Shown: positions 654 through 55,857 of the stretch, piece after piece
Layout: every line of letters starts with the position of its first letter
Numbering within the stretch: the first letter of the stretch is position 1
From: Kappaphycus alvarezii
Lineage: Eukaryota; Rhodophyta; Florideophyceae; Gigartinales; Solieriaceae
Direction: 5' to 3'
Assembly: GCA_002205965.3 (NCBI GenBank)
Contig: NADL03000633.1
Location: 62,001 to 126,000, forward strand
Length of the DNA stretch: 64,000 nucleotides
Notes under the pieces: model-generated
The model's database searches: none
The model's input: only the letters and a program-made list of their open reading frames with translations
Told to the model about the DNA's origin: nothing
Translations under genes and position numbers: made by a program

Positions 654-2023
654 CGATAGGGGTAAATCTTCAGGAGAAGAGATATTCAGAACCAACCACC
701 CCAAGAAGAAGGTGTTGCAAGCGAAAAAAGTGCTACCGTGGTATAGTTGAACGAATAAAAGGGAATGTATATGGGAGAGAGTTGAGAGGGCTACAAGCAA
801 GTATAAAAGGGGCAGGGTCTACCACTGATGCTCTGCGACCAGCTTAGGAAAACGTTTTCTTGGGTTTGAAGTTGACTCTCAACCCCCTACTACTCAGGAA
901 TTGGCTTGAAGTTGTCTGCCAACTTGCTTGACCTCTCAAGGAGGAAGCACTTTACTCAGCTTATATAGACTTTTCGGCTACCCCTAAAATCTCAAAGAAA
1001 CATACTAAGAACCATAAAATGCATCAAATGGAATCGTGTGGACGAGAAACACTAACAGGATATTCTACCAGGATAAATATCTAGATTCTTTCCTTCATAT
1101 CTTATTCCTCTACATCAGAGCCAAGCAGTTCCCCCAAAATATCCAATCCACCCACGCAGTCCACACAAATATCCGCGAACGGCTTAGAATTCTCCATTGC
1201 CTCCTGTGAAATTTCTGGACCACTGAAGACGTCCCCATCCGGTTCCGGAGTCGGAACCACCTGGTCCATATTTTCTGGTCCCTTCCCCACTAATCCAGCA
1301 CTTTCCATGTCTCCCTCCCCCTCATCCTCCTCTTCCTCCCCTTCTATTCTCTCTTCGTCCTCGTCAGAAGAGTCAGAGATCACAATTACGCCCTCAGTCT
1401 CCCCTTCTTTCTCCATGGGAGCCCCCCCACCGTTATAGACTAGTGGTTCCCACGGATCCACCCAGTCCTCCTCTTCATCCTCCTCATTCTCCTCTTCCTC
1501 TATCTCCTCTTCTCCCTCCTCCCCTCCTCCGCCTCTTCTGCCTGCTCGAAGCAGTTACGGCGGACCCACTCCCGAACGCATTCCCCGTCCAACCTTCTAC
1601 AGTAATCATCGTAGTCGGTTGGACCATTCGCCATCAGGGCCAAAGCGTTGAGTGGACGACGGCCTCAGGATGACTTGGCGATGGTGAGGGAAGGATGGAG
1701 GTTGGTCATGTTAAGGGCTAAAAGAAGGGGTGAGCCGATGGGGTGGTTGATGGCGGGGGGTTGCCTCAACGACGTCGACTTCGAAGTTTAAATACTGCGA
1801 GGTCTTCGAAAAGTATGTCGACCTTAGACGTGTACAGTAATGACATCTATTAATGACACTGTGTCTTAAAATAAAAAATCAACTCATGAATTTGCCACAC
1901 TCATCCAAATTAAAAATATCTTGCAAATTCAGAAACTGTAAAAATATCTTCCAAATCCCGATACTGTATCCAAATTTGGTCCTCCTCTAGATTTTTTTTC
2001 GTGTGCAAATTTTGCGCACATCA
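654..2023 (-). mobile_element. Solo LTR S1, long form with U3 ORF
   Basis: A minus-strand LTR of 1370 bp flanked by the perfect 5-bp TSD CAAAC (649-653 and 2024-2028). Read on + it starts CGATAGGGG (normally TGATAGGGG, first base mutated) and ends GCGCACATCA. In element sense it runs from TGATGTGCGC through U3 with a decayed copy of the acidic ORF, a TATATAAGC promoter box and the common R-U5, to CCCCTATCG. It joins the U3 terminus of the short LTRs (55139, 48118) to the ORF-bearing U3 of the long LTRs, so it is an intermediate or recombinant form. No internal element remains, which fits LTR-LTR recombination. Confidence 0.93.
1102..1632 (-). pseudogene. LTR-encoded acidic SIM protein, decayed copy
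   Basis: Minus-strand homologue of the intact ORF at 6437-7021. The N-terminal block NGPTDYDDYCRRLD is readable around 1595-1632. The frame is then broken near 1500, and a 119-codon frame (1102-1461) carries WEPLVYN, the SUMO-interacting motif EGVIVISDSSDEDEE and the C-terminal block MDILGELLGSDVEE in slightly changed form. The sequence differs from the 6.4-kb copy at many positions, yet the N-terminal block, SIM and C-terminal helix remain. That suggests past selection on the protein. Confidence 0.75.
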
Positions 2024-2315: not shown

Positions 2316-3478
2316 CTAACAAGTTCAAAGTAGAGGACAAGTACACCGGATCATTCTCCGGAAAAGTCCCCCTCCACCGTGTTCGCAACAAATTCCTTGA
2401 CGCCGTCCTTGACCAATGCATTCCAGGCGCCGACCAAGTGGACCTCCTCCACTCTGGCTTATCTGGGATAGCGTGGACTATTAATACAAGTTTATTCGAG
2501 GTATCTGGAGTTCGATCGACGAGGCATTCAAGGCTTTGGAAACTCGATTTTAACTCGTTACAGCACCAATCACAGGCCAGTTTGTACCTCAAGAAGCTAG
2601 CCATCCGCAATATTATGAAGGAAAGGGAGTGTTCGCAAGTCACCGTAATCTAAGTAGCACACGAACGAATTATAAATACAGTGCCTTCCTGTGGCCGCGA
2701 GTGTCAAAGCGACAGCCACTACTGTGATTTTATGGAAGACATTGTCAGGGACGAATATTGGGCCGAAAAAGTTTTTCAAGATCGATTGACGCCGTCTTCT
2801 ACAGAGCAGATGGACTACAACAAGTTTTACTTCAAAACTTGGCGCCGCTCTCACGTCATATGAACGCCGCTACTCCTCGTCAGATGAAGCAGACCCCGTT
2901 GCTGCAGCTACTTTCTTCGGAGAGAAATATGCTGCCCCCATCCGCCTTCAGACCCCCGCCGGCATCTCTATATGGGAACCACACCGAGCACCCTTGCCGA
3001 ACTTACTAAGCCTCACCAACATGCTTCGATCTCAGAATCGAGCTAGAAATCATATGTCACCTATCCAGCTGGCGCAGTTGAAAGCAAGAACAAGGTGACT
3101 GAGTTGTAACCAACTTTGTACTGGCGACATGAATGTCCTCAGTGCGCCCAGTCTTCGACCAGCTCTGTAATGATGGCCCTGATTCAAGCATTAGGAATGG
3201 GAGAGGACGCCGTGGCTAAAGCGCTATGGGCTATATCAGAGGACGATGAAGAGTACCACGCCTATCTTTCTCTCACCAATCACATAGAGGGCCGTGCGTA
3301 TCTGGAAAATAACTCATTTCAGGCGTTGATGAGCCATTTCGTAGATCCCGACGCTGACGATGACGACGTTAAGGCCGTCGCAGACCTTCAGAATTCGTTC
3401 GAAACTCTGACATATCACCTCACTGGCGCACCCAACGACAAAGAGCAGCAAGTTGTTCCAACGCCGACGGTGATGTAG
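2316..3478 (+). pseudogene. Copia-A gag/spacer region, frameshifted
   Basis: Several overlapping + strand frames (about 2316-2653, 2681-2863, 2850-3080, 3116-3478) look like one decayed coding region upstream of the copia protease. The last frame (3116-3478, 120 codons) is acidic and well formed, with DDDDVKAVADLQNSFETL near its end. I recognise no domain and no CCHC knuckle. A minus-strand frame over 2149-2643 is treated as a shadow. The assignment to gag rests on position only. Confidence 0.35.
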
Positions 3479-3860
3479 AGGACCTTCCGCCGGCTAACAC
3501 TTAGTGCTCCGTGAAGGCAGTTTGCGTGACCACAATAGATCGTCAAACGTCACACCAAGATCACGATTCGATGCATATGTATACCCAGGAAGGCATTATA
3601 CGTGATCAAGCGAATAGCCAGTTTTTCCCATATGTACGAATTAAGCCTAGCACTGCCGGCCTTTCGGACATTACCAAACTGTACACTGGGCCTCGAAAGC
3701 GCCAGATACAACGCAAGGAGTTACGAGGCGCACTAAACAAGTCCGAAAAGAAGAGTCATATTTCCAATATGCCTCTACTCATACGCGCATCAGCTTCTGT
3801 CGTTGAACACACACTTACACGATTCAGTCAGGTCTAGCACTAGCCCGCTTTCGTCACGTA

Positions 3861-4229
3861 TTGCCGATGCATATGAAACGGCAACAACACGGTGCGTTTA
3901 CTATACCCCCAAAAGCCAGCATTTTCGAGAGCGACGGAAAATTCGAAGTCGCCGCTTTAGACACCGGTGCCCGACTATCTGTTATGGGTCTTAACCAGGC
4001 AAAAGCGTACTTTCAGGAAGTTGGCATACCCTTCAAGCCTAATCTTTCCAGCTCGCGTTACCACTTTGGGGCTGGCCGCTCCACGTCACTTGGCAAGATC
4101 CTAGTAGCCATCTCTACACCACAGAGCATGCTTCAACTCTGGATTGATGAAGTGTCCCTGGACATACCACTCCTCATAGGGCCTGACGTCCTCGACAAGT
4201 ATTCAATTCAGATACTATCACCTTTTTAA
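3861..4229 (+). pseudogene. Copia-A aspartic protease (retropepsin)
   Basis: The 122-codon frame contains the retropepsin signature ALDTGARLSVMG (catalytic D-T-G) and, about 70 residues on, a hydrophobic LLIGPDVLD segment as in the second part of the retropepsin fold. In the living element this enzyme would cut the Gag-Pol polyprotein inside the particle. It lies directly upstream of the integrase zinc domain, in the order protease-integrase-RT typical of Ty1/copia. The start codon is arbitrary because the domain would be internal to a polyprotein. Frames before and after are offset, so the copy is dead. Confidence 0.7.
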
Positions 4230-4233
4230 CAAG

Positions 4234-4542
4234 TTGGAATGCGCGCAAGAGAACTGGCCCGTCCCGATCACGCGCAAACGGAGACTCATTTACCGGGAAT
4301 GGGATCTTAGCGCCCCTACATTCTTCACTCGACCGCTATTGGAACGGCTCCACCGACATCTACTGCACCCATCAACCCGGAAGTTGTACAGCCTACTCCG
4401 CGGAGCTAAACTCGATCAGCTTACACCTGAAACTATGACTGTTCTTAAGGCCATACAGAATTCATGCTTTACATGTCAGATGTACTCACCGAAGCAACTG
4501 GTCTTCCGCGTCCGTTTTGCCGAATCTATACGATTCAACTAG
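4234..4542 (+). pseudogene. Copia-A integrase N-terminal HHCC domain
   Basis: This frame carries LHRHLLHPSTRKLYSLL followed about 30 residues later by SCFTCQ. That is an H-x(n)-H ... C-x2-C zinc-binding pattern as in the GAG-pre-integrase domain of copia-like elements. It would precede the catalytic core encoded by the next frame (4561-5460); a stop and frame break separate the two. Its place between protease and integrase core supports the call. Confidence 0.65.
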
Positions 4543-4560
4543 GATGTTTTACTAGACGTC

Positions 4561-5460
4561 ATGTATTTAGAGGAGAAACCTGGGGAGAAGCAGCTTCCTG
4601 TGCTGCATATTGTTGACGTCGGAACAAAATTCCAGAGCGCAGTGTTTCTCAAGTCTATGGATGCAGCTAACGTTTGGAAAGCCTTCGTCAAAGCCTGGTC
4701 AGCACTTTACGTTGGGTTCCCTGAGAGTATGCTTACGGACCAAGAATCGGTCTTCGTATTCAAGCAGGGAAAATACAATTGTGAGCTGGCAAGCATTAAC
4801 CTACGTCACAACGGGACGGAAAGCCACAACGCACTGGGCAGTGGAGAAACATACCATGCCCTACTCCGACGGGTCTCCCGTAAGACAAGATCTGATCACC
4901 CACAGGTACCACCCGACGTTTCCCTTGCGCTAACCATACAAGCCATCAATTCTGCAGTAGACCCAGACGGCCTTTGCCCTCAGCTACTTGTGTTCGACGT
5001 GCTCCCTAGGCTCCCAGGCCTTTGCCCAAATGAGTTCCCGGCACAGAAGGAATGCTTCAAAGCCCGACGTACTGCTCAAGCAGAGTATGAGCGACTTGTC
5101 TACCGTGAGATAGTGAACCGAGGACTTCACTCAGTCCATCCGCCCTCAGCAGACCACAAGTACCTATCGGGAGACTTTTCTTACATCTACCGTGAGAAAC
5201 TAAAGCAGTGTACCGGCCCTCACCTCATTGCGTCAGTACACGGGAAAAAGGCTCTTCTACATGTCGGTGAACGCACTGGACTAAGAGAATTTAACATTGC
5301 ACAGCTTCTCCCCGCTCCACTCGCGCGTCTGGATTCCATGGATGAGCTGTTAACCAATGACGACGACAGCGAGCCGCTCGTTCTTTGCTTCGAAGTGATT
5401 CCCATCGGGGACCACGTGGACAAAGTCCTGCGTTCGACGAAGTCAGGAGAAAGGAATTGA
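4561..5460 (+). pseudogene. Copia-A integrase catalytic core
   Basis: The 299-codon frame opens with the HHIVD-like segment LHIVDVGTKFQSAVFL (first catalytic D) and continues with FPESMLTDQESVF (second catalytic D), in the layout of the rve core. A SGETYHALLRR segment, where a clear catalytic Glu would be expected, is the least certain part. The C-terminal half has the small beta-rich look of the integrase tail (GDFSYIYREK, then a CTGPHLIASVHGKKALLHV stretch). The RT frame overlaps its 3' end in another phase. Function in the intact element: insertion of the cDNA into host DNA. Confidence 0.65.
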
Positions 5461-5998
5461 TTGGCCTCATCGAAAGGGGAACCTTTCGTATTGTCCTGTC
5501 AGAGGACGACGGAGAGAATCCGAACATAATTCAATCCCGTTTCTCACTTCTTATCAAGCACTCTGAAACCGGCGATGTCAAGTATAAGGCCCGATTCGTT
5601 TTAGGAGGCGACAGAGACAAGCATCAAGTTGTAAATAACGCCACCAATATCAAGGAATCCTCAGTCCGCTTGATACTGGCTGTCCCTTGACGTAAGTCAG
5701 GCCTACCTTCAGTCAGCCTCGCAGCTCAAGCGCGACGTTTTCATTCGCCCAAAGGAGCTAGAATTATTACCTGGAGAGCTCATTCAGATTATGAAGCTAC
5801 TGTTTAGCCTAAGCGATAGTCTACTGGTGCGAAACCTTCGCCAAGTTCCACATCCATAGCCTTCGCATGGAACAAGCAACGGGAAACTTTGCAATTTTCT
5901 TTCGACGATGCGTTGATTCTCTCGTCGCTCTGTCTGGCGCTTATGTTGACGACGTCATCAAATCGTCACCTGCGACCCACAAAGTCGAAATTTGCAAG
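5385..5998 (+). pseudogene. Copia-A reverse transcriptase, first part
   Basis: The RT start is recognisable as RRKELIGLIERGTFRIV followed by YKARFVLGGDRDKHQV, the copia-type fingers region. After frame breaks come DVSQAYLQSASQLKRDVF and the catalytic box GAYVDDVIKSSP (about 5935-5970). The frame is then cut at 5999-6003 by gypsy element M. Removing M and one TSD joins ICKQI to KEHFQIT (14884 on) in the same phase, so M hit the RT gene of a copia element. Confidence 0.75.
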
Positions 5999-6436
5999 CA
6001 GATTGATAGGGGTAAATCGTCGGGAGAAGAGATATTCAGAACCAACCACCCCAAGAAGGAGGTGTTGCAAGCGAAAAAAGTGCTACCGAGGTATAGTTGA
6101 ACAAATAAAAAGGAATGTATATGGGAGAGAGTTGAGAGGGCTACAAGTAAGTATAAAAGGGCAGGGTATACCACTGATGCTCTGCGACCAGCTTAGGAAA
6201 ACGTTTTCTTGGGTTTGAAGTTGACTCTCAACTCCCTACTACTCAGGAATTGGCTTGAAGTTGTCTGCCAACTTGCTTGACCTCTCAAGGAGGAAGCACT
6301 TTACTCAGCTTATATAGACTTTTCGGCTAATCCTAAAGTCTCAATCAAACATACTAAATACCATAAAACGCATAAAAGGGCATCTTGTGGATGTGATTGG
6401 CCAGAGGGAAGATATTATCAAGGAAAATATCTGTAT

Positions 6437-7021
6437 CTACTCCTCACAATCGTTATCCTCAAGATCAGAACCAAATAACTCCTCCAAAATATCCATACTC
6501 TCAATGCAATCCCTACAAATTCCCTCGAACGACTCAGAATGATAAATGGCTTCATCAGACATATCAAGATCCTCCAACCCTTCCTGGCGCCCCTCAGCCT
6601 CCGCGCCAACCCCATCCGAAGAATCCGAGATGACGATCACGCCCTCACTATCCCCTCCATCCCCCGCATCAACTTCCCCACGATTATACACCATCGGTTC
6701 CCACGGAGCTACAAAGTCTTCCTCATCCTCGGATCCCTCCACGTCCGACTCAGTCCCCTCTGAATCCTCCTCCTCCGCCTCCTCCAAGAAGTGCCGACGA
6801 ACCCACTCCCGAACACGCTCACGGTCCATCCTCCTGAAGTAGTCGTCGTAGTCTGTTGGCCCATTATTCATTAGGGCTAGGCCGTTGATGGGGCGAGAGG
6901 GGCGGCTTTTGGTGATGAGGGCGGAGGGGCGAAGGTTGTTCATTCTGATAGACGTTGGGGAATGGGAGGCAATGTAGGGTGTTTTGGGGGGAGGGGTGAT
7001 GAGTAAAATGGTCGGGGACAT
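6437..7021 (-). CDS. LTR-encoded acidic protein with SUMO-interacting motif
   Basis: A 194-codon frame inside U3 of the 3' LTR, in the same sense as the element. Residues 1-50 are basic and proline-rich. 52-80 is the conserved block GPTDYDDYFRRMDRERVREW, 80-105 is a Glu/Asp run, and 128-136 is VIVISDSSD, a hydrophobic core followed by acid/Ser residues. That is the classic SUMO-interacting motif. Residues 168-189 form a likely amphipathic helix ending MDILEELFGSDLED. There is no signal peptide or membrane segment. A TATTTAAAC box lies about 20-30 bp upstream of this ATG. Nearly the same protein occurs at 13925-14431 and 29125-29709, with diverged copies at 1102 and 21493. Expression and function are unknown; SUMO binding is inferred from the motif only. 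Confidence 0.75.
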   Translation of the reverse strand: MSPTILLITPPPKTPYIASHSPTSIRMNNLRPSALITKSRPSRPINGLALMNNGPTDYDDYFRRMDRERVREWVRRHFLEEAEEEDSEGTESDVEGSEDEEDFVAPWEPMVYNRGEVDAGDGGDSEGVIVISDSSDGVGAEAEGRQEGLEDLDMSDEAIYHSESFEGICRDCIESMDILEELFGSDLEDNDCEE

Positions 7022-7025
7022 TTGG

Positions 7026-7050
7026 AACTTGGAATAAAGGAGTTTAAATA
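7026..7050 (-). promoter_or_regulatory. TATTTAAAC box upstream of the LTR ORF
   Basis: The minus strand reads CCTATTTAAACTCC about 20-30 bp before the ATG at 7021. The same TATTTAAAC occurs at the equivalent place in the 13.9-kb and 29.1-kb copies and, in diverged context, in S1 (around 1785-1795). This suggests a dedicated promoter for the acidic ORF. Confidence 0.5.
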
Positions 7051-7308
7051 GGCTCCCGGGCAGGTTCTATAGATTAGGAATAGGTAAAATAAATCTGCAG
7101 GGGATTTTGCAGTAGTGCATTTGCGCCCTTCTTCTCAAAAATAGGTGAATTTGGAGGAGGAAGTAAGCTAAAAGGGAAAAGGAACTTGATTCGGGGTCGA
7201 TTCAGAGGGCTAAATACAGTATAAAAATATCTAGATAAAATGGAAGTAAATTTGGAAATGACGGTGGGGAAGTTAGGGGCGGGATCGTTGTAGGTTGCTG
7301 GATTACAC

Positions 7309-7419
7309 GAAGGGAGGACCATTTCCTGTATTACATGAAGGGAGGGCCATTTCCTGTATTACATGAAGGGAGGACCATTTCCTGTACTACATGGAGGGAG
7401 GACCATTTTCTGTATTACA
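7309..7419 (-). repeat. Four tandem 28-bp units at the LTR terminus
   Basis: Four head-to-tail 28-bp units begin GAAGGGAGGACCATTTCC and end TGTATTACA(T). The last unit ends exactly at the LTR border, so the terminal sequence used by integrase is itself repeated. The 5' LTR (14796-14878) and S3 (30000-30082) have three units. Confidence 0.9.
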
Positions 7420-7432
7420 CGCCCCCTTTCTC
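7420..7432 (-). promoter_or_regulatory. Polypurine tract of element M
   Basis: The minus strand reads GAGAAAGGGGGCG immediately before the 3' LTR, the expected place for the plus-strand primer of reverse transcription. Confidence 0.75.
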
Positions 7433-7452
7433 AAGGCGAACGTCCCGGGTCG

Positions 7453-9135
7453 TCACTTCCCTTCTTCTGTTTCCGTTAGTGTTCGCTGTCTTATTGATAA
7501 AATATATGGTCTCTCAAACGGGTATGGATGCAACTGATTACCAATATGATGCTCTAAAAAGTAGGTTCGCATTACTGGTACCTCACTTTGTACCATAGCC
7601 TCATATATTGGTTTGATAACATCGAGATGGTGTTGAATACATTCTTCTTCCGTGACTCTTCCGAATCTTCCAAGAGTAAAAAAATATATGTGATATGCAA
7701 ACTCTTCTGGAAGATGCCGGAGGAATGGATGCCGATAAGAAAAGAAGACGCGCATCATCAAGAACGAATCTTCGTAAGATAATTGCGGTCCATGTAGTGC
7801 CCTAAAACATAAACAGATGCTTATCATGAAATAAGAAATGACCTGTGCATCGTTCGCGTCCTCGAAGATATTGCGCAGCCAAAAAGATAATCTTCTTCTT
7901 CCGACTGTATGTTGTGCATGGTTGTGAAGGAGAGCTAGAGATGAAGTTGTGGTGGACGGTCCCGATGAGTGGCCGCGACCAGCTCCTGACGTACTGGGCC
8001 CTGCACGAGGTCCTCTCGGGGGACGATCGGAACCTCTTCTGGGCGGGTTGTTGTCTCCCGAAGGTCCTCCTTTGGTCATCACCACTGCTTCAGGAGGATC
8101 CTCGCCGCCGCCAACGTTCCCAATTTGTGGCGGAGAAACGTAAGGTTCCCATAGAGGATACGGGACCAGTCTGTATTCCATATCCGGGGGTAAGGCGTAA
8201 CCTCTCAGTCGCACATCTTGGTTGTTCTTGAGAAATACGTAAATCGGACGGACAATGTTCAGATACGTTTGCGATAAGTCTCCGGCAGCTACCATTCCAT
8301 ATCTTCCTATAGAGTAATGATATATTACCTCCACAAACTCTGGACCTGCTTCCGTGAACCTTCCGTTTTGGAATGAAAATAGAACTCTTATTAATAGTCG
8401 GAAATCTTCTTCAGGTAGCAATGGTCCGTTCACCGTACGGCAACGTAGACGTATATTAATGTAGAAATGGATGATTACGTGGAGTTCGTAGTACTCCCGC
8501 GTAATCGAGTTGATCCATTCCCAGGCCCTTTTTCCTCCTATAGGAATCATTCTATAGTTAAAGATGAGTATGCCCCGTGGTTGCGCATAGTCCTGTGTGA
8601 GAAGGAATTCTTCAGGCCTCTGATGGTAAGGGACCAGACGACGTGCATGGATGGCCCTCCTTGATCTCTTCCCTGAGCTTGAACAGAGCTGATAGTGCGG
8701 GTGTCTTTCCTCCGTGACGATGCAAGGGTTCGAGTACTTGGTTTGGAAGGCCGGCCACTTCACAGCCTGCTGCATTGCTTTTCCATGTACTACAAGTACT
8801 ATAGAGCCAACCGAAAAGGTTCTGACTGCAGGTTCTGCATCCTTATTTCTTGTCTGTGTTAGCGCGCGGTAGGATATCCAGCCTTCGGTGGCCAGTAGTT
8901 CAACTTCCCTACTCTCTTCATCGATAATATTTGTTTCCATATCTCTCTGTAACATTCTAGGAGCCCTTCCGTACATTAGCTCAAACGGTGACCGTCCACT
9001 TTTTCCTCTTCTTCGACGATAGCCGTATAACACTTTTGGTAAAGCATATTCCCACTGGATTTCATTCTCCGACATAGTTTTCCATATTGCTCGTTTGATG
9101 GTTCCAACCATCCTCTCCGCTTTACCGTTTGACAT
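7453..9135 (-). CDS. Element M Pol, integrase core and duplicated C-terminal domain
   Basis: A 560-codon frame. It begins at MSNGKAERMVGTIKRAIW, the segment holding the catalytic Glu of the integrase core; the two Asp residues lie in the upstream frame 9175-9621. After the integrase tail come two homologous domains of about 130 residues. Both share I-C-x-C-F-like cores (degraded to RLRC in the first copy), an E-D-x-x-L pattern, RV(L/F)FS(F/Y), GR(Y/F)G and PYP...PY. A Gly/Pro/Ser-rich linker separates them. No chromodomain is seen. Element P has the same pair (60828-61830). The function of the duplicated domain is unknown. Confidence 0.8.
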   Translation of the reverse strand: MSNGKAERMVGTIKRAIWKTMSENEIQWEYALPKVLYGYRRRRGKSGRSPFELMYGRAPRMLQRDMETNIIDEESREVELLATEGWISYRALTQTRNKDAEPAVRTFSVGSIVLVVHGKAMQQAVKWPAFQTKYSNPCIVTEERHPHYQLCSSSGKRSRRAIHARRLVPYHQRPEEFLLTQDYAQPRGILIFNYRMIPIGGKRAWEWINSITREYYELHVIIHFYINIRLRCRTVNGPLLPEEDFRLLIRVLFSFQNGRFTEAGPEFVEVIYHYSIGRYGMVAAGDLSQTYLNIVRPIYVFLKNNQDVRLRGYALPPDMEYRLVPYPLWEPYVSPPQIGNVGGGEDPPEAVVMTKGGPSGDNNPPRRGSDRPPRGPRAGPSTSGAGRGHSSGPSTTTSSLALLHNHAQHTVGRRRLSFWLRNIFEDANDAQVISYFMISICLCFRALHGPQLSYEDSFLMMRVFFSYRHPFLRHLPEEFAYHIYFFTLGRFGRVTEEECIQHHLDVIKPIYEAMVQSEVPVMRTYFLEHHIGNQLHPYPFERPYILSIRQRTLTETEEGK

Positions 9136-9174
9136 AGGAGCGTATGCGAGAACTGTCTTCAGCTGAATCCCTTT

Positions 9175-9621
9175 CTATTCCAAGAAACGAAGCAATGAAG
9201 TTGCAGTAAAACAAAGGGCGTTATCCGAGATGATCCTTTTTGGAAGGACAAACAGTTCAATTATTTCTTTTTCGATGAATTTCAGTAACACCTCAGCATT
9301 TGCCTCCTCAACTGCAACTGCTATTGGCCATCCAGTAAGATGTTCCACCCCTATAAGGAGATATTTGTTTCCGGAAGATGTTTCCTTGAACGGGCCCGCA
9401 AAGTCAATTGAGAAGGTTTCAAAGAGACCGGAAACTGGAAAACTTAGAGTTGTCTTATATTTTCGTATTGGAGTGAATTTTTGACAGTTGTCGCAGCTTT
9501 TCACGAAATTATAGACGTCCTTATGGATACTGGGCCACCAGAATCTCTCAGTTACGAATTTTTTGGTTGTGCCGAGATCCAAATGCCCTAACTCGTCATG
9601 GAAAGTCCTCAAGATCTTCAT
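9175..9621 (-). CDS. Element M integrase, zinc domain and first catalytic Asp residues
   Basis: A 148-codon frame with the HHCC zinc pattern HDELGHLDLGTTKKF ... SCDNCQKF, then FSIDFAGPF (first catalytic D) and IISDNALCF (second catalytic D). A stop or frame break just after LLRFLE (about 9140-9175) separates it from the frame that carries the catalytic Glu. The product would join element cDNA to host DNA. The equivalent region of element P is uninterrupted, so the break is a lesion of this copy or a sequencing error. Confidence 0.85.
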   Translation of the reverse strand: MKILRTFHDELGHLDLGTTKKFVTERFWWPSIHKDVYNFVKSCDNCQKFTPIRKYKTTLSFPVSGLFETFSIDFAGPFKETSSGNKYLLIGVEHLTGWPIAVAVEEANAEVLLKFIEKEIIELFVLPKRIISDNALCFTATSLLRFLE

Positions 9622-9715
9622 TCTTTTTTCAAAGGGGCCACTAGTCGGGGATCGGCTTTAGTGTGCCGGAAGAGTTTTCCATTCCACAATGTAAATGCTT
9701 TTGATTCCTGCGTAC

Positions 9716-10319
9716 CTAATTTCTACGTTCCAGATTAACCTTTCTCATTTCAATTCCATCCAAGAACTTAATAAGTCCGTAAATATTAGCTTCGTACTCT
9801 GTTTCGTTCGGCGCCTGCACCTCGGCAACTCCGACGATGTCCTCGGAAGCCTTTTCATTTGGACTCAGTGGATCCCTCAAGCGGGATAGGTAATCGGCAG
9901 GCTGATTATTGCGTCCTGGTCTATGCACAATTTCAAACCGATATTCTGCGAAAATGTCGAGCCATCGGGCCAAGCGGTGATGTACATCCTTCTTTTGGAA
10001 TGCTGTCGTAAGTGCCTGGTGATCAGTTATCAAGACAAACTTCTCGAGTGATAAAAGGTATACGCGAAACTTTTTCAGCGCGAAGACGACAGCTAGCGCT
10101 TTTTCTCGCAGACTGCGTATCTCTTTTCCGCATCATTCAGAGTTCGGCTTGCGAATTGAACAGGGTGTAGTCTTCCGTTTTCATCTTTTTGGGACAAAAC
10201 GGCACCCAAAGACCGTTCTGAGGCATCTGTCTCCACAACGAATGGTCTCTTGAAATCTGGGTACATGAGAACCGGGCGGACACATAGCTTATCTTTAAGC
10301 TCCTGAATGCAGTTTCCAT
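9716..10319 (-). pseudogene. Element M RNase H domain
   Basis: Two minus-strand frames (10137-10319 and 9716-10033) cover the Ty3-type RNase H. The second holds LITDHQALTTAF and YRFEIVHRPGRNNQPADYLS, which carry catalytic Asp residues in this family. Homology to the intact frame of element P (from 59033) shows that at least one indel lies between about 10033 and 10140. The activity degrades the RNA strand during reverse transcription. Confidence 0.75.
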
Positions 10320-11231
10320 TTCCTTGTTCCAGTAATATTTTCCGTTCTTCGTAGTGCTGGCATGTAACGGTGCTGCAGTCTTGGCGAAATCTTTGATAAA
10401 TCTTCTGTAATATGAGGCCAGTCCTAAGAAGCTTCGGACCTCGTCTTTGAAGCGGGCCTTGGTGCCAACTTTATTTTTTTCGTTTTCTCTGGATCCACTC
10501 TAATTCCCTCTTGGTCGACGATATGACCGAGTAATTGGATAGAAGTTTTCGCAAAGAAGCATTTGCTCAACTAATTTTCAAGCTATACTCCGATATCCTC
10601 TCCACAACTGTCTTGACGTGCGATATGTGCTGATCCAATGTTTCTGAGAATATGACGACATCATCGATATAGACTCTTGCGAATGGAAGTCCTTTCAAAA
10701 CCTCGTTCATCATTCTTTGGAATGTAGCTGGTGCATTCATGAGACCAAAAGGCATCACTTCGAACCTGAAAGTACTGGCTTTGCTGGTAAAGATTGTTTT
10801 TTCCTTACATTTTTCATCCAATGGAATCTGCCAATAGCCAGAGTGAAGGTCAATTGAGGTGAAATATCTCCCATCCTTCAGGTTCTCGAGGATCTCCTCC
10901 ATGTTCGGAATCGGAAATCGATCGGGTATCATTCTCTGGTTCAGTTGTCGGTAATCGACGCAAAAGCGAAGTTTTCCATCCTTCTTTGGTGCTATCACAA
11001 CCGGAAATGACCATGGGGATGAAACTGGTCGAATAATATCATTTTTCAGCATACTTGTAACATTTTTGAGATAAATTGGTCATATTTTGGCGGTTGACAT
11101 CTATGCCTGTGGTGAATCGGCTGAGTGTCGGTAAGCTCAAATGAGTGAGTGACCGGTACGCTTGCTTGTCTTAGATCGGAAGCGCTCCATGCAATTACTT
11201 CGGAAGATGTTAACATGTCGGATATTTTCAT
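10320..11231 (-). pseudogene. Element M reverse transcriptase
   Basis: The 161-codon frame 10567-11052 has the RT landmarks VIAPKKDGKLRFCVDYRQLN, FTSIDLHSGYWQIPLD, MPFGLMNAPATFQRMMNEVL and the catalytic box YIDDVVIFS. A short frame upstream (11046-11231) supplies the N-terminal QASVPVTHSFELTDTQPI segment. The thumb and connection down to about 10320 are frameshifted. All of this matches element P (58161-59030) closely. Confidence 0.85.
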
Positions 11232-11513
11232 TGAGGCGGGGCGGGAAGGTGCTGCACTTCTCCTTGGATTTCTGCAATTTGGCGCCTTTTTTCTTCTTGA
11301 GCCTCTCCCTCCAAATTTTGAAGGACCTCTTCCGGCGTGCTCACATCTTCAGATATGGAATCCGATATATTCATGTTTTCCTTGCAATTTTAATCTCGTT
11401 TCATGCTCCGAATTCCGTCCTTTGATTCGATATTATCGCAAAAAGAAACACATTCAAGTGTCACACCTACCCTAGAGTTCCAGTCTTCATCTGTTTCAAA
11501 CCCAGAATCATAA
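11232..11513 (-). other. Protease-RT linker region, no open minus-strand frame
   Basis: This stretch lies between the protease and RT frames of element M. The equivalent region of P (57800-58160) is acidic linker sequence. Here the minus strand is broken by frame changes and the + strand frames are shadows. Confidence 0.5.
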
Positions 11514-12341
11514 TCATTCCATGCCATGTTCAGTATCCCCGAGCGTACCCTTCTCCACTTCCAAAAGTGTTAGTTGGTTCTGAATTTTCGCTTCATAGCT
11601 AGAAGTGAAATCTTCACTGTCCGTTTCTTTCAAATCTACCGGATGTGTGCTTTTGTCGAAATCCAGGGGCATCTTCACGGTTCTGCCGTCAACATTAACT
11701 GAAACGATTTGGTTGCCCAAGTCAATGCAGATCCCTAGTCTTTCCATGGTAGGGCAGCCAAAGATTGCATCGAAAGGGAGTTCAGGCATGACAAGAAAGT
11801 CTACATCAACTTTAAAGTCCCCAAAGAACACGGAAACCTTGTCAACAGTGCCCATGCATTCTGATACGGTTCCATCCGCCACAGTTATTCTTTGAGTAGT
11901 TGGAATAATTTCAAGACCTAGATCTGTCACCAAAGTTTCTGAAATAAGGTTTGAAACAGCGCCCGAATCGAAAAGAGCTTGGGTTTGCATTCCCAATACT
12001 TTGGCTGGTACTAGTTTGAGACGTCTTGGTGCTGTCGATGCCGATTGAAGAAACAGTTTCTTACCCTTAGCGGACTTATTAGACCTGATAATTTTTTTGA
12101 GTTCTTTTCTCGCGTCCTCTGCGTCGCGCCTCAAAAGTTGACCAAACGTTATCCCAGTTGGGGCTGATGCAAGCTCAGCCACCAAATTGTACTTCTTCAC
12201 ATATTCTAGTACGTCCTTCGGGATATTCTTAAATTTCTTACTCTTTTTCGTCTTCTTGGCCGGAGTGACTCCCATTCCTGGAACAACTTGATCAGATCTC
12301 TTGGTTCGAGGAGGTACAGGTGCTGGGATATGTTCCAGCAT
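11514..12341 (-). CDS. Element M retropepsin with basic N-terminal region
   Basis: A 275-codon uninterrupted frame. Residues 29-38 (KKTKKSKKFK) form a basic patch that could act in nucleic-acid binding or nuclear targeting, which is inference. Residues 122-133 (ALFDSGAVSNLI) are the retropepsin active site with Asp125-Ser-Gly. About 60 residues later ELPFDAIFGCPTMERLGI has the hydrophobic-hydrophobic-Gly pattern of the second half of the fold. The C-terminus is acidic and links to RT. The protease would process the Gag-Pol precursor. Element P carries the same protein broken by indels and a stop near 57548. Confidence 0.85.
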   Translation of the reverse strand: MLEHIPAPVPPRTKRSDQVVPGMGVTPAKKTKKSKKFKNIPKDVLEYVKKYNLVAELASAPTGITFGQLLRRDAEDARKELKKIIRSNKSAKGKKLFLQSASTAPRRLKLVPAKVLGMQTQALFDSGAVSNLISETLVTDLGLEIIPTTQRITVADGTVSECMGTVDKVSVFFGDFKVDVDFLVMPELPFDAIFGCPTMERLGICIDLGNQIVSVNVDGRTVKMPLDFDKSTHPVDLKETDSEDFTSSYEAKIQNQLTLLEVEKGTLGDTEHGME

Positions 12342-12480
12342 TCCATAATCTAGCCTAGGTTTTTTCGATAAAATGTTCCCTTCCCATCCCTTTTTGTCAC
12401 ATTGACTTGACTGATTTCTTCAGCCATGGATACATTACCGGCATCCGTCAACTTGTGATCCTTTCTGTTTTGAAAGATTT

Positions 12481-13417
12481 TCATCTCTGTCCTGACTCGC
12501 TCCTTGCGTCCGATAAATTCGCTTTTCTGTTGTCTTTAGACCAGCAGTTACTTTCATGATGCCCATATCGACCGCACATTCCACAACGAGTGTTTCTATG
12601 TGGATTATCAGGACACCTATTTGCAAAGTGCCAGGCTTGTGACAGTAGGAACAGACTTCTGCGGCCTTGGGGCCCCAGACTGTTCTTCTTAATGGTAAGA
12701 GTAAGGCTTTCCAACTGCGAGGTTATCATGTCAAGTCGATTATCGAATCGGGTTTCCAACCTTTCTTCCAAGTTTTTGACATCGCTCCTGACAGATTCCA
12801 ATGCTGCTGCGCTGATAGCTGGCCTTTAATAATTCTTTTCAGGATGTACGATCGGCATAGATGTACGGGTTTCCCTCGGTATTTCACTTAGTGACTGAAA
12901 CGTCTCCGAATTTTTGACAAATTCTACTATGGTACCCTTCAGTTCATCAAAAGTGTGAGGGCCCTTGATGAGGAGGAAATCGGAGAGCCGCTTATCCCCC
13001 ATCGCCGTCTTACGCAGCATTCCGTATTGGCTTGGGCGTTGAATCCAGCCTTTTCATAGGATCACACAAGTATACCAATGAGCTTAACAAATCGTCGAAG
13101 TTGAGCCGGGCCTCTATGTCGGTACGAATCATCTCATCTGGTTCTACCTCCTTAGCATATTCTTTCAAAAGCCACTCACATACCTCACCGAAGTTACGCC
13201 CATTCCCGTTAAGAGACCACCCGTTGATAAACTTGGCCTTATATTTGTGCTTTGCGTCACCATGAAGATAGGCGAAGATACTTTCGGCCTTCTCTTCATC
13301 GCTCTTCTCACGCATCACAACGTTGACATATGTATAGAGAAACTCCTCAACGTCTTCATACTTGCCCCCTGTGACCGTTATACGAGCAGCGTTGAGATCC
13401 ATGATTACAGAAAACAA
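12481..13417 (-). pseudogene. Element M gag with CCHC zinc knuckles
   Basis: Three frames (13010-13417, 12826-13020, 12481-12801) cover Gag. The start is MDLNAARITVTGGKYEDVEE; a preceding MFSVI is optional. The capsid-like part is followed by a coiled-coil-like stretch (SVRSDVKNLEERLETRF) and a zinc knuckle C-GMC-GRYGH-HESNC (CX2CX4HX4C), with the tail of a second, upstream knuckle (HFANRC). The first frame is lost near 13020 by a one-base deletion after NAQA relative to the frame needed. Gag would form the particle and bind element RNA. Confidence 0.8.
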
Positions 13418-13470
13418 ATCCCCTCGAATGGTTCCCTAGACTGCTCAACTCGAATACCTCGGGTGCAATC

Positions 13471-13490
13471 CCCTCCACAAGAATACCAAA
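13471..13490 (-). promoter_or_regulatory. Primer binding site region of element M
   Basis: Directly after the 5' LTR the minus strand reads TTTGGTATTCTTGTGGAGGG. Element P has TTTGGTACTCTTGTGGAGGG at 55858. TGG two bases after the LTR is typical for pairing with a tRNA 3' CCA end. I cannot name a tRNA with this acceptor sequence, so another priming mode is possible. Confidence 0.5.
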
Positions 13491-14878
13491 TGATAGGGGT
13501 AAATCGTCGGGAGAAGAGATATTCAGAACCAACCACCCCAAGAAGGAGGTGTTGCAAGCGAAAAAAGTGCTACCGAGGTATAGTTGAACAAATAAAAAGG
13601 AATGTATATGGGAGAGAGTTGAGAGGGCTACAAGCAAGTATAAAAGGGGCAGGGTCTACCACTGATGCTCTGCGACCAGCTTAGGAAAACGTTTTCTTGG
13701 GTTTGAAGTTGACTCTCAACTCCCTACTACTCAGGAATTGGCTTGAAGTTGTCTGCCAACTTGCTTGACCTCTCAAGGAGGAAGCACTTTACTCAGCTTA
13801 TATAGACTTTTCGGCTAATCCTAAAGTCTCAATCAAACATACTAAATACCATAAAACGCATAAAAGGGCATCTTGTGGATGTGATTGGCCAGAGGGAAGA
13901 TATTATCAAGGAAAATATCTGTATCTACTCCTCACAATCGTTATCCTCAAGATCAGAACCAAATAACTCCTCCAAAATATCCATACTCTCAATGCAATCC
14001 CTACAAATTCCCTCGAACGACTCAGAATGATAAATGGCTTCATCAGACATATCAAGATCCTCCAACCCTTCCTGGCGACCCTCAGCCTCCGCGCCAACCC
14101 CATCCGAAGAATCCGAGATGACGATCACGCCCTCACTATCCCCTCCATCCCCCGCATCAACTTCCCCACGATTATACACCATCGGTTCCCACGGAGCTAC
14201 AAAGTCTTCCTCATCCTCGGATCCCTCCACGTCCGACTCAGTCCCCTCTGAATCCTCCTCCTCCGCCTCCTCCAAGAAGTGCCGACGAACCCACTCCCGA
14301 ACACGCTCACGGTCCATCCTCCTGAAGTAGTCGTCGTAGTCTGTTGGCCCATTATTCATTAGGGCTAGGCCGTTGATGGGGCGAGAGGGGCGGCTTTTGG
14401 TGATGAGGGCGGAGGGGCGAAGGTTGTTCATTCTGATAGACGTTGGGAATGGGAGGCAATGTAGGGTGTTTTGGGGGGAGGGTGATGAGTAAAATGGTCG
14501 GGGACATTTGGAACTTGGAATAAAGGAGTTTAAATAGGCTCCCGGGGCAGGTTCTATAGATTAGGAATAGGTAAAATAAATCTGCAGGGGATTTTGCAGT
14601 AGTGCATTTGCGCCCACTTCTCAAAAATAGGTGAATTTGGAGGAGGAAGTAAGCTAAAAGGGAAAAGGAACTTGATTCGGGGTCGATTCAGAGGGCTAAA
14701 TACAGTATAAAAATATCTAGATAAAATGGAAGTAAATTTGGAAATGACGATGGGAGAAGTTAAGGGCGGGATCGTTGTAGGTTGCTGGATTACACGAAGG
14801 GAGGACCATTTCCTGTACTACATGAAGGGAGGACCATTTCCTGTATTACATGGAGGGAGGACCATTTTCTGTATTACA
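13491..14878 (-). repeat. 5' LTR of element M (1388 bp)
   Basis: Pairs with 6004-7419. It carries TATATAAGC (minus strand, near 13800) as promoter box and R-U5 down to CCCCTATCA. Differences from the 3' LTR include single-base changes in G-runs and three rather than four terminal 28-bp units. Confidence 0.95.
13925..14431 (-). CDS. LTR-encoded acidic SIM protein, 5' LTR copy
   Basis: Almost identical to the 6437-7021 protein from Met27 (MNNLRPS) on, including GPTDYDDYFRRMD, EGVIVISDSSD and the MDILEELFGSDLED tail. The first 26 codons of the longer copies are out of frame here because G-runs near 14440-14480 are one base shorter. Translation could start at MNNLRPS (14431). The shortened G-runs may be true mutations or assembly errors. 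Confidence 0.7.
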   Translation of the reverse strand: MNNLRPSALITKSRPSRPINGLALMNNGPTDYDDYFRRMDRERVREWVRRHFLEEAEEEDSEGTESDVEGSEDEEDFVAPWEPMVYNRGEVDAGDGGDSEGVIVISDSSDGVGAEAEGRQEGLEDLDMSDEAIYHSESFEGICRDCIESMDILEELFGSDLEDNDCEE

Positions 14879-15001
14879 CAGATCAAGGAACACTTTCAGA
14901 TCACGCTCGACGACTCCCCCAGTTTTTTTGTACTGGCTTATTCTGCGATACGTCCAACAGGAACATGCGCACCCTATCAGAAGCCCAATATATCCGTTAG
15001 G
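14879..15001 (+). pseudogene. Copia-A RT, continuation after element M
   Basis: The frame QIKEHFQITLDDSPSFF directly continues the RT frame cut at 6003 once M and one TSD copy are removed. It corresponds to the thumb region after the YVDD box. The frame then ends at a stop near 15001, and the RNase H follows in another phase. Confidence 0.7.
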
Positions 15002-15048
15002 TAAATCTGCTCCCACTTGATGCAGACTCCAATCATTTCGGTCCTTTC

Positions 15049-15714
15049 GTGCATCTACCCACAACCGAAGCTACCCTGAGATTTCTTAAGCTGGACAGAG
15101 ACTCTCTTTGTCTCATGGTGTATGCTGGCTCTTCCTTCGCCCACCGCCCGGATTTCAAGTCCAAGCTCGGATACATTGTATGCCTCACAGAAAAAACACA
15201 GCAATATGCGATCTCACATTTTTCCTCGCACAAGTCCGGACTCGTCGCTCGATCAAGTATGGCGGCCGAGACAATAGTATTCGTCGAAGGCTTTGATAAT
15301 GCCGTTATAATCACGCAAGACTTGGAACGCATCCTAGCTCGTAATTTTCCGCTGAGGATGATGAAAGATAGCAAACTATTGTTCAATGTACTTACTCGAG
15401 CTCCGTACACCGCGGAGAAACGCCTAATGGTAGACATTGCATCTGCTCGTGAGTCGTACCAAGAATTCTTCATATCCAATGTCGGCTTAATTCGATCAGA
15501 GTATAACCCTGCTGACGGATTAACGAAAATTGAGCCTGAAAACGCACTCAAAGCATCATTGCATACCTACAGGGTCTCTCATCCAGTGGAACAGTACGTG
15601 ATCCGTTCATCGCCCACAAGTCGAGCGGTTCTCGGACTTCCAGAGGAGCTAGTGTCGAACAGCGTACGAAGTGATAAGTCACTCGAACCGGCTGTGAATC
15701 GTGTCCACGTGTAG
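15049..15714 (+). pseudogene. Copia-A RNase H and C-terminus
   Basis: A 221-codon frame with the copia RNase H pattern: GYIVCLTEKTQQYAISHFSS, then ARSSMAAETIVFVEGF, whose Glu is the catalytic acid of the SS-x-A-E motif, and later YNPADGLTKI, the usual end of copia Pol. It is 3' to RT as expected for Ty1/copia. The element carries frame breaks upstream, so this domain is a relic even though this frame is open. Confidence 0.75.
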
Positions 15715-21058: not shown

Positions 21059-22348
21059 TGATGGGGGTAAATCGTCGGGAGAAGAGATACTCAGAACCAA
21101 TTAGCCCAAAAAGGAGGTCTTGCCCGCGACAAAAGTGCTACCGTGGTATAGTTGAACAAACAAAAAGGTTTCGGTAAGGGCGACAGTTGAGAGGGCTACA
21201 AGCAAGTATGGAAGGGGCAGGATCTACCACTGACGCTCTGTGACCAGCATAAGAAAAATGGATCTTGGGTCTGAAGTTGACTCTAAATTCCTACTACTCG
21301 GGAATTTAGTTGAAGCTGCCTGCCAACTTGCCTTCAACTCCACAAGAGGAAGCAGTTTATCCAGCATATATAGAATTTTGGCTACCCCTAAAGTCCGAAC
21401 AAAACTACAAAACATACCGAGAAATGCACTAACGCGAGTCATGTGGACTATTGAAACTAGCGAAAAGATGCTTCCGAGATAAATATCTATATCTACTCCT
21501 CACGATCATTATCCTCAAGGTCCGAACGGAACCATTCCTCTAAAATATCCATACCCCCAATAAAATTGCCACAAATTCCCTCGAACGGCTCAGAATGACA
21601 AATTGCCGTATCGAAAATATCAAGATCCTCCAAACCTTCATCGCAATCATCAGCCTCCTCTCTATCCGAAGTGTCAGAGATTATAACCACTCCCTCACTC
21701 TGCCCTTCTTCCCCTACCACATCTTCTCCACGGCTGTACACCATCACCTCCCATGGATCTACCCAGCTTCCTCATCATCAGTCCCTCCGCGTACGCTTCG
21801 GTATTTTCTAACTCCTCCGCCTTCTCCAAGAATTGCTGACGAACCCACTCCAGAACACGCTCCCGGTCCATTCTCCTCAAGTACTCGTCGTAGTCCGTTG
21901 GCCCATTTTCCATTAAAGCTAAACAGTTAATGGGACGCGGGACCCTCGTTGATTTTTGGATGGTAAGAGAAAGGCGGCGTTGGGTCATGTTGATGGCGAA
22001 AGAGAGGGGTTTTTCGGGTGAGTTGATGTGATTGTTGATAGTAGAGTGGTGCATAGATGACTTTTCTGTAGCGCTTTGTATATGGACATGCTTTGATCCT
22101 TTCTATGGCCTTTGGTAAAATTTCAGAAATGTGAGGACATGTTTTAATTGTTAATTTGCGTAAATTCGAAAAAGAATCTGCTCGACAGAATATAGGACCT
22201 GCATTTGGATTCAGAGGGGAGAACGTCTTCGAGTTTCTTTTTAAAAGAATTGGAAGGCAGGAAATCGATTTGAAACGGTAGAGGTCATCAATGGATCATG
22301 GGATGAGAGGAAAATGAAATTGCGGGAATGATCGTTTTTATGACAACA
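21059..22348 (-). mobile_element. Solo LTR S2, long form, subfamily II
   Basis: A 1290-bp LTR on the minus strand flanked by the 5-bp TSD GTATG (21054-21058 and 22349-22353). On + it starts TGATGGGGG and ends TGACAACA; in element sense it begins TGTTGTCATAAAAACG. It carries the TATATATGC promoter box and a decayed copy of the acidic ORF. It is clearly older or of another subfamily than M, P and S3. Confidence 0.85.
21493..22054 (-). pseudogene. LTR-encoded acidic SIM protein, S2 copy
   Basis: The 5' part (frame 21695-22054) contains NGPTDYDEYLRRMDRERVLE, and the 3' part (frame 21493-21747) contains EGVVIISDTSDREE and MDILEEWFRSDLEDNDREE. A frameshift near 21770 separates them. At amino-acid level the N-terminal block, the SIM and the C-terminal helix are again the best kept parts, although nucleotide divergence from the M copies is high. 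Confidence 0.75.
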
Positions 22349-28689: not shown

Positions 28690-30082
28690 TGATAGGGGTA
28701 AATCGTCGGGAGAAGAGATACTCAGAATCAACCACCTCAAGAAGGAGGTTTTACAAGCGACAAAAGTGCTACCGTGGTATAGTTGAACGAACGAAAAGGA
28801 GTGTATAGGGAAGACAGTTGAATGGGCTACAAGCAAGTATGGAAGGGGCGGAGTCTACTACCTATGCTTAGTGACTAGGGTAAAATAAATGATTCTTGGG
28901 TCTGAGGTTGACTCGCAACTCCCTAACTATTTGGGACTGGGCTTGAAGTTGTCTGCCAACTTGCTTGACCTCTCAAGGAGGAAGCACTTTACTCAGCTTA
29001 TATAGACTTTTCGGCTAATCCTAAAGTCTCAATCAAACATACTAAATACCATAAAACGCATAAAAGGGCATCTTGTGGATGTGATTGGCCAGAGGGAAGA
29101 TATTATCAAGGAAAATATCTGTATCTACTCCTCACAATCGTTATCCTCAAGATCAGAACCAAATAACTCCTCCAAAATATCCATACTCTCAATGCAATCC
29201 CTACAAATTCCCTCGAACGACTCAGAATGATAAATGGCTTCATCAGACATATCAAGATCCTCCAACCCTTCCTGGCGACCCTCAGCCTCCGCGCCAACCC
29301 CATCCGAAGAATCCGAGATGACGATCACGCCCTCACTATCCCCTCCATCCCCCGCATCAACTTCCCCACGATTATACACCATCGGTTCCCACGGAGCTAC
29401 AAAGTCTTCCTCATCCTCGGATCCCTCCACGTCCGACTCAGTCCCCTCTGAATCCTCCTCCTCCGCCTCCTCCAAGAAGTGCCGACGAACCCACTCCCGA
29501 ACACGCTCACGGTCCATCCTCCTGAAGTAGTCGTCGTAGTCTGTTGGCCCATTATTCATTAGGGCTAGGCCGTTGATGGGGCGAGAGGGGCGGCTTTTGG
29601 TGATGAGGGCGGAGGGGCGAAGGTTGTTCATTCTGATAGACGTTGGGGAATGGGAGGCAATGTAGGGTGTTTTGGGGGGAGGGGTGATGAGTAAAATGGT
29701 CGGGGACATTTGGAACTTGGAATAAAGGGGTTTAAATAGGCTCCCGGGGCAGGTTCTATAGATTAGGAATAGGTAAAATAAATCTGCAAGGGATTTTGCA
29801 GTAGTGCATTTGCGCCCTTCTTTTCCAAAAAAAGGTGAATTTGGAGGAGGAAGTAAGCTAAAAGGGAAAAGGAACTTGATTCGGGGTCGATTCAGAGGGC
29901 TAAATACAGTATAAAAATATCTAGATAAAATGGAAGTAAATTTGGAAATGACGGTGGGAGAAGTTAGGGGCGGGATCGTTGTAGGTTGCTGGATCACACG
30001 AAGGGAGGAACATTTCCTGTATTACATGGAGGGAGGACCATTTCCTGTATTACATGGAGGGAGGAACATTTTCTGTATTACA
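28690..30082 (-). mobile_element. Solo LTR S3, long form with ORF
   Basis: A 1393-bp LTR flanked by the perfect 5-bp TSD ACTTG (28685-28689 and 30083-30087). From about 28930 to the outer end it is nearly identical to the LTRs of M, but 28690-28930 (U5 and part of R) differs at many sites. It therefore looks like a mosaic of two LTR subfamilies. Three terminal 28-bp units are present at 30000-30082. Confidence 0.94.
29125..29709 (-). CDS. LTR-encoded acidic SIM protein, S3 copy
   Basis: A 194-codon frame, essentially identical to the 6437-7021 product: MSPTILLITPPPKTPY start, GPTDYDDYFRRMD block, EGVIVISDSSD motif and MDILEELFGSDLED end. The frame is open further upstream to 29997, but the TATTTAAAC box just upstream of the ATG at 29709 favours the shorter start. 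Because it sits in a solo LTR, this copy could be expressed independently of an element. Confidence 0.75.
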   Translation of the reverse strand: MSPTILLITPPPKTPYIASHSPTSIRMNNLRPSALITKSRPSRPINGLALMNNGPTDYDDYFRRMDRERVREWVRRHFLEEAEEEDSEGTESDVEGSEDEEDFVAPWEPMVYNRGEVDAGDGGDSEGVIVISDSSDGVGAEAEGRQEGLEDLDMSDEAIYHSESFEGICRDCIESMDILEELFGSDLEDNDCEE

Positions 30083-55138: not shown

Positions 55139-55857
55139 TGATGTGCGCAAATTCGCACACGAAAAAATTTAGATGAGGACCATAATTGTATACAGTATTG
55201 GAACTGGGAAGATATTTTTACAGTTTTTGAATTTGCAAGATATTTTTAATTTGGATGAGTGTGGCAAATTCATCGGTTGATTTTTTATTTTAGGACACGC
55301 TGTCATAGTGGATGTCAGTACAGTTCTAGGTTGTGGGTGATACTACGAGTGACTCTGAAAGGTCTATATAATGGCCACATCAATTCCCACCCCTGGCCGA
55401 TGGGTGGCTGGCATGGGTATGGCACCTAGATATTTACCTTGAGGAAATATCTTCTAATAGTCTCTCTGGTTCACACGATTCCCGTGAATGCGTTTTATGG
55501 TATTTAGTATGTTTGATTGAGACTTTAGGATTAGCCGAAAAGTCTATATAAGCTGAGTAAAGTGCTTCCTCCTTGAGAGGTCAAGCAAGTTGGCAGACAA
55601 CTTCAGGTCAAGCTCCGAGTAGTAGGAAGTTGAGAGTCAACTTCAAACCCAAGAAAACTTTTTCCTTAGCAAGTCGCAGAGAATCAGTGGTAGACGCTGC
55701 CCCTTTTATACTTGCTTGTAGCCCTCTCAACTCTCTCCCATATACACTGCTTTTTATTTGTTCAACTATACCACGGTAGCACTCTTGTCGCTCGCAACAC
55801 CTCCGTCTTGGGGTAGTTGGTTCTAAGTATCTCTTCTCCCGACGATTTCCCCTATCA
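55139..55857 (+). repeat. 5' LTR of element P (719 bp, short form)
   Basis: Begins TGATGTGCGCAAATTCGCAC and ends TTTCCCCTATCA. Promoter box TATATAAGC near 55545; a second TATATAATGG lies upstream near 55365. The right half is shared with the LTRs of M, the left half is not. Confidence 0.96.

Follow-up and report, generated by a model that had tools for sequence, protein, structure and literature searches.

A putative protein-coding gene within the U3 region of Ty3-type LTRs in the red alga Kappaphycus alvarezii

The U3 region of a long terminal repeat (LTR) normally holds regulatory DNA, and a reading frame contained within U3 raises the question of whether an LTR can itself carry a protein-coding gene and what such a protein might do for its element. 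A frame of this kind recurs in the window (the whole stretch of 64,000 nucleotides that was analysed), which belongs to a contig set of 336 Mb in 884 contigs. The original prediction placed it at 6437–7021 and described an acidic, LTR-encoded protein with a SUMO-interacting motif (SIM).

The frame resides in a Ty3-type element on the minus strand (6004–14878, LTR to LTR), bounded by the target-site duplication (TSD) CAGAT at 5999–6003 and 14879–14883. The 3′ LTR (6004–7419, minus strand, 1.4 kb, TGT...TCA) and the 5′ LTR (13491–14878, minus strand, TG...CA ends, delimited by self-comparison and flanks) are separated by 11 substitutions over 1385 aligned sites, and a putative polypurine tract (PPT), the purine-rich GAGAAAGGGGGCG, adjoins the 3′ LTR (7420–7432, minus strand). 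Matches to protease (PR), reverse transcriptase (RT) and the integrase zinc domain (H2C2) exceeded the Pfam cut-off, and those to the integrase core (rve) and part of RNase H (RH) fell below it, on separate ORFs in both cases; the ORFs tested at the gag position had no Pfam match, gag being assigned by position only. The TG...CA LTRs, short TSD, PPT and order PR-RT-RH-IN (rve and RNase H sub-cut-off) are those of the Ty3/gypsy group, and the element has complete ends and interrupted coding frames. Its pol relatives had 42–54% identity among the best 16 matches listed. Tandem repeats of 28 bp (TGTAATACAGGAAATGGTCCTCCCTCCA type) stand at the 5′ start of the LTR (7295–7419) and at the corresponding position in other LTRs of family A, their number differing among copies. 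On either side of the element, copia-like plus-strand ORFs were recognised by eye (3116–5998 and 14884–15714), which suggests a nested insertion of the Ty3-type element.

As originally predicted, the ORF occurs in element sense in five LTR copies of the window, all on the minus strand. The three open copies, described as near identical, encode one identical 168-aa protein (plus stop) from the 3′ LTR (6437–6943, ATG at 6943), the 5′ LTR (13925–14431, ATG at 14431) and a solo LTR (29125–29631, ATG at 29631), and in each of these the complete frame lies inside the LTR and 5′ of a TATATAAG box (6316–6309 in the 3′ LTR). The remaining two are diverged and broken by stops and frameshifts; one (about 1102–1709, minus strand) lies in a solo LTR (654–2023, minus strand, TSD CAAAC) whose 5′ U3 partly resembles that of short LTRs, and the other (about 21493–21988, minus strand) lies in a stretch identified as part of an LTR (21059–21988, minus strand). 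They nonetheless keep, respectively, GPTDYDDY and GPTDYDEY, VIVISDSSD and VVIISDTSD, and LDILGELLGSDVEE and MDILEEWFRSDLED, so that the description of lost frames with retained blocks is borne out. In the 3′ LTR the stop codon (6439–6437) is followed by the TATATAAG box (6309–6316, minus strand), a putative main promoter of the element, and the placement of the frame in U3 holds if the element RNA starts at this presumed promoter.

The extent of the frame required correction. The earlier ORF call (6437–7021, minus strand, 194 aa) began at an ATG further upstream, which LTR families do not share, and the start was moved to the ATG at 6943, the one that recurs across them. Sequence upstream of 6943 has no alignment between families, and some copies, among them 13925, L056 and L057, are frameshifted 5′ of the GPTDYDDY block (L056 and L057 also have a frameshift downstream of the conserved ATG and were counted as broken); the start at 7021 is probably wrong.

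A TATTTAAA box (7043–7050, minus strand), which precedes the conserved ATG by 107 nt, is the putative promoter of the U3 gene. When the best TATA match 180–40 nt before the start was sought in 30 copies from several families (200 shuffles each), it was 8/8 in 17 copies, 7/8 in 11 and 6/8 in two. The 8/8 boxes were positioned 55–116 nt before the start and were rare in shuffles (0–0.035); the 7/8 (0.135–0.365) and 6/8 (0.65, 0.89) matches were not. Near the expected place, 27 of the 30 copies had an ATG in any phase, 26 of these 27 with A at −3; it was out of phase in L070, L071 and L084. When diverged-family LTRs were compared with the query LTR (blastn), the upstream U3 was mostly unaligned, with matches beginning in the ORF or shortly before it, and the TATA box before the ATG recurs although the upstream U3 has no alignment between families. 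The U3 gene thus appears to be laid out as a TATA box, a conserved ATG preceded by A at −3, and the frame of an acidic protein of 168 aa.

Across the genome, tblastn with the protein returned at least 155 matches. From this list 80 loci were taken, ranked by protein similarity and so leaning towards open frames; together with the five copies in the window, 35 of 85 retained an uninterrupted frame that starts at the conserved ATG and spans the C-terminal block (157–200 aa). Older copies are mostly dead, and many frameshifts occur at homopolymers, where they may partly be assembly errors. Some rows of the tblastn list are TGA-rich; repeat-induced point mutation was considered as their source, and the matches of L065, L067 and L068 were found to be split over frames. 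A second sample was drawn from the best 40 hits to 433 noncoding bases 3′ of the ORF, a probe that leans towards query-like copies as 120 of its bases come from the interval separating the ORF from the TATATAAG box. The ORF was intact in 12 of the 27 copies examined (6437 itself included), while L099 has no ORF there and matches a short LTR over 432 aligned bases. Among the tblastn matches listed, the other 13 hits corresponded to three long stop-free matches (C94, C603, C250), eight matches cut short and two with none. Relative to 6437, 25 copies had 0.0213 substitutions per site in the ORF compared to 0.0324 in the noncoding LTR, and 1.44 compared to 4.19 non-homopolymer frameshift indels per kb. 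A count of stop-free copies was uninformative as a neutrality test, 17.5 of the 25 being expected stop-free by substitution alone.

Selection on the frame was assessed between families with 29 copies from six LTR families grouped by eye, with broken copies included and stop codons left out. Between families (NG86, 314 pairs), dN was 0.30 and dS 0.99, a ratio of 0.30, compared to 1.25 and 1.13 when the remaining sense frames were read; excluding the family of the query left 146 pairs, with ratios of 0.32 in frame and of 1.20 and 1.05 in those two frames. Off-frame ratios between families were 1.05–1.35, except for 0.40 and 0.42 in the one antisense frame mirroring the codon phase. Under MGK+F3X4, omega was 0.40 for seven copies, from four families, whose frame stays open across the C-terminal block (lnL −1941.1 vs −1963.6 at omega 1 and kappa 2; a gain of 22.6 log units), 0.48 for one copy per family (seven copies, some broken; lnL −2767.8 vs −2791.8; 24.0 log units) and 0.81 for all 29 copies, dead ones included (13.4 log units), and a simpler first codon model of the 29 copies gave an omega of 0.66 to 0.68, 18.4 log units better than omega 1. 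Within families, the ratio was 1.06 in family B and 0.62 in family C.

The signal depends on depth. Among 43 copies without stops in the match, binned pairwise by nucleotide divergence, dN/dS was 0.84, 0.66, 0.72 and 0.93 at divergences up to 0.02, 0.05, 0.1 and 0.2, but 0.34 at 0.2–0.4 (72 pairs) and 0.37 at 0.4–0.7 (11 pairs); the other sense frames gave 0.53–0.99 in the first four bins and 1.00–1.39 in the last two. Recent copies give no clear signal, their in-frame values (0.66–0.93) overlapping those off-frame, and purifying selection is confined to the deep pairs of these bins. The original prediction had contrasted constraint with dN/dS near 1 and random stops; constraint was found between families (0.30 to 0.48), and no signal among recent copies. 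A weak signal among the latter is expected if copies decay after insertion, and our reading is one of purifying selection in active lineages with neutral decay of inserted copies. By segment, the between-family ratios, which are rough given short segments and several dS values near or above 1, were 0.53 for the first 16 residues, 0.19 for the GPTDYDDY block, 0.28 for the acidic stretch, 0.86 for the linker, 0.16 for the APWEP block (0.30 without family A), 0.19 for the SIM, 0.49 for the next stretch, 0.34 for the LDMS block and 0.20 for the C-terminal block. The GPTDYDDY, APWEP, SIM and C-terminal blocks are the most strongly constrained.

These ratios bear on two explanations in which the protein has no role. 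Promoter or RNA signals might constrain U3 as noncoding DNA and happen to leave an ORF, and U3 is the usual site of regulatory DNA, but the constraint follows codon phase (0.30 in frame vs 1.25 and 1.13, with the antisense value of 0.40 mirroring the same phase), and this explanation is extremely improbable. A fragment of a host gene, captured once and carried passively in U3, would account for an orphan protein with many dead copies; set against purifying selection between families and the recurring TATA/ATG layout, it is scarcely more credible. Because dN/dS is frame-specific, both are disfavoured, and the U3 ORF is, on the evidence of codon evolution, almost certainly a protein-coding gene under selection.

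The 168-aa protein is acidic, as had been predicted (pI 4.05), with a net charge of +5 over residues 1–52 and −41 over residues 53–168. Alignments identified as conserved blocks GPTDYDDYxRRMDRERVREWVRRH, an acidic stretch, APWEPMVYN or DPWEPLVYN, SEGVIVISDSSDG, LDMSxEAIYHS and MDILEELFGSDLED. The published SIM consensus, given in passages of PMC8616421 as an aliphatic core (hXhh/hhXh) with an acidic or Ser flank, is fitted by VIVISDSSD, in agreement with the predicted SIM-type motif, and 18 of 21 diverged copies retain the core with its flank; two of the remaining three (L085 and L086) look out of frame there. The same passages describe the consensus as degenerate, such that many matches may not be real. 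The motif resembles the SIMs of DAXX and PML in having a four-residue aliphatic core beside Ser and acidic residues (PMC8616421, in part), and VIVISDSSD is a candidate SIM. Possible binding partners are encoded in the genome, in which PF11976 (SUMO/ubiquitin-like) had 36 matches (best, 1.5e-17) compared to none in 14 control genomes; these matches indicate SUMO- or ubiquitin-like host genes, SUMO itself not being separated from ubiquitin. In a variant, L081:1207–1716, the central part is different (ESVGLVGPGMESMDQ...), lacks the SIM and resembles an extra stretch of copy 1102; it is possibly a second subtype.

When 5.8 billion proteins were searched by sequence and by profile, the single match was a 115-aa fragment from a 947-base contig. 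No Pfam match to the protein was found at E 0.01, and at E 1 no family was matched by more than one of 20 members (best, 0.02 to a DUF). The PDB yielded only two matches (E 0.4 and 0.85) and none for a 30-residue SIM piece, while none of 571 pattern matches in viral contigs was confirmed. Within the searches made, the U3 protein family appears to have no relative of known function or name.

Among retroviruses, U3 is known to hold protein genes (MMTV sag and, in part, nef). The sag gene of MMTV, a mouse retrovirus, lies in U3 and is present in both LTRs; its product is a membrane glycoprotein acting on T cells. The precedent drawn from MMTV in the original prediction applies to the position of the gene, in U3 and in both LTRs, and does not extend beyond position, as the protein here is acidic and of SIM type in a Ty3-type element. 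Pfam holds a Sag family, and relatedness to Sag, compared by Pfam only, was not detected in either Pfam search (E 0.01; E 1 with 20 members). Lentiviral nef and foamy virus bel are likewise accessory frames that reach into the U3 of the 3′ LTR, but they start outside the LTR, leaving a solo LTR without the whole gene, whereas the gene and its TATA box are here inside the LTR. In the open-licence literature, as far as the passages retrieved go, no LTR-encoded protein was found for any LTR retrotransposon outside the retroviruses, Ty3-type included; similar phrases in passages of PMC12037069, PMC13195028, PMC5408686, PMC4016481 and PMC11117352 referred to pol or element proteins or to non-LTR ORFs, and passages of PMC10787394, PMC5741268 and PMC12859917 contained no LTR-encoded protein. 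The retroviral U3 genes being known before, what appears to be new here is a U3-resident gene in a Ty3-type retrotransposon.

The LTRs are mosaic between U3 and R-U5. The solo LTR at 28690–30082 (minus strand, TSD ACTTG) matches the 3′ LTR of the element (6004–7419) at 506/507 positions in the ORF and 120/120 from there to the TATATAAG box, but at 269/312 from the box to the LTR end; the solo LTR at 654–2023 has the reverse pattern (368/490 in the ORF, 303/313 from TATATAAG on). A change of partner near R would be expected from first strand transfer if two RNAs had been packaged together. In the crapaud LTR retrotransposon of Podospora anserina, U3 likewise differs strongly between subfamilies over a conserved R and U5, with recombinants and a proposal of template switching (PMC10787394, in part). 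For crapaud two ORFs are named in the passages, Gag and a chromodomain-bearing Pol, and, unlike the case here, no LTR-encoded protein is mentioned (PMC10787394).

A sister element on the plus strand (55139–62618, TSD GTCAC) has LTRs of about 720 bp without the U3 gene. Its LTRs differ by four substitutions in 718 sites, it is 93.7% identical to 8123–13877 over 5775 aligned bases, and its RT, RNase H, H2C2 and rve matches all exceed the Pfam cut-off. Inspection of its U3 by eye showed TCTATATAATGG at about the position that the U3 gene promoter would occupy. An equally young element lacking the ORF implies that the U3 gene is dispensable in cis, which fits a trans-acting factor and equally a dispensable one.

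The sister element also bears on copy-number control, in which the U3 gene would make a trans-acting inhibitor of the element and ORF-less elements would be escapees, Ty1 p22 being a self-limiting inhibitor from an internal promoter. A promoter-like layout and presence in solo LTRs would raise the dose with copy number, and a recent ORF-less element exists; selection on an element for self-restriction should, however, be weak in theory, and the U3 protein has no Pfam match, making this explanation distinctly unlikely. A somewhat less unlikely role is that of a particle or nuclear-import accessory, binding Gag, integrase or the pre-integration complex and relying on the SIM to dock in the nucleus or to choose target sites. 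Post-transcriptional action is known for some retroviral accessory proteins, and the conserved SIM and acidic blocks are possible docking modules, but such a role would leave a separate promoter inside U3 unneeded.

The explanation preferred as a whole, held with even confidence, is that the element has its own U3 gene for a SIM-bearing acidic nuclear regulator that acts on it in trans. The gene would be transcribed from its own TATA box, and, as the frame ends before the presumed main TATA box of the element, each LTR, solo LTRs too, could serve as an expression unit. The genomic RNA of retroelements carries U3 at its 3′ end, so that the gene would be copied at each transposition. The SIM would dock the protein to SUMO-modified nuclear proteins, and the acidic C-terminal block, helix-like by eye, may be an activation or cofactor-binding surface, such that expression of the element would be promoted or SUMO-dependent silencing blunted. 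As a rough estimate, the chances that the protein is a nuclear regulator acting in trans are about balanced, and that it binds SUMO is slightly favoured; anti-silencing as its purpose is possible but doubtful. For this last function the preferred model, by analogy, is that of the VANC proteins of VANDAL DNA transposons, which are element-encoded and counteract epigenetic silencing (PMC10398659, PMC5735166); these belong to DNA transposons and are likened to the U3 protein by proposed function only.

A broader joint reading can be offered tentatively and is rather unlikely in its entirety: the LTR would be a stand-alone gene unit with its own promoter, its SUMO-binding acidic protein would keep nuclear copies active in trans, the gene would be a cassette moved between elements by U3/R-U5 reassortment at first strand transfer, and the ORF-less short-LTR elements would be parasites on it. 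LTR-resident genes are easily missed in annotation, where LTRs are usually treated as noncoding control regions, and the factor could still be expressed from solo LTRs, which as a rule are regarded as dead remnants. A trans-acting effect of the protein on SUMO-linked silencing, if real, would provide a handle on counter-silencing by LTR retrotransposons and on ORF-less relatives exploiting a helper.

Several further features of the window and assembly were observed. The Pol of the sister element (59033–61888, plus strand) runs some 370 aa past integrase (C-terminal part, about 60758–61885), as does that at 7453–9135 (minus strand). Within 59033–61888 a domain of about 130 aa occurs twice (34% identity between the two, E 3e-24); this doubled post-integrase domain had no match in Pfam and, by eye, appears to be shared by a 593-aa protein (P0017) on a 1969-base NCBI contig. 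The AT-rich stretch at 32001–36000 has a GC content of 30%, compared to about 45% on its left. In the PF11976 search, single matches of equal score were paired across contigs (e.g., C749/C459 and C693/C118), which may reflect two haplotypes in the assembly.
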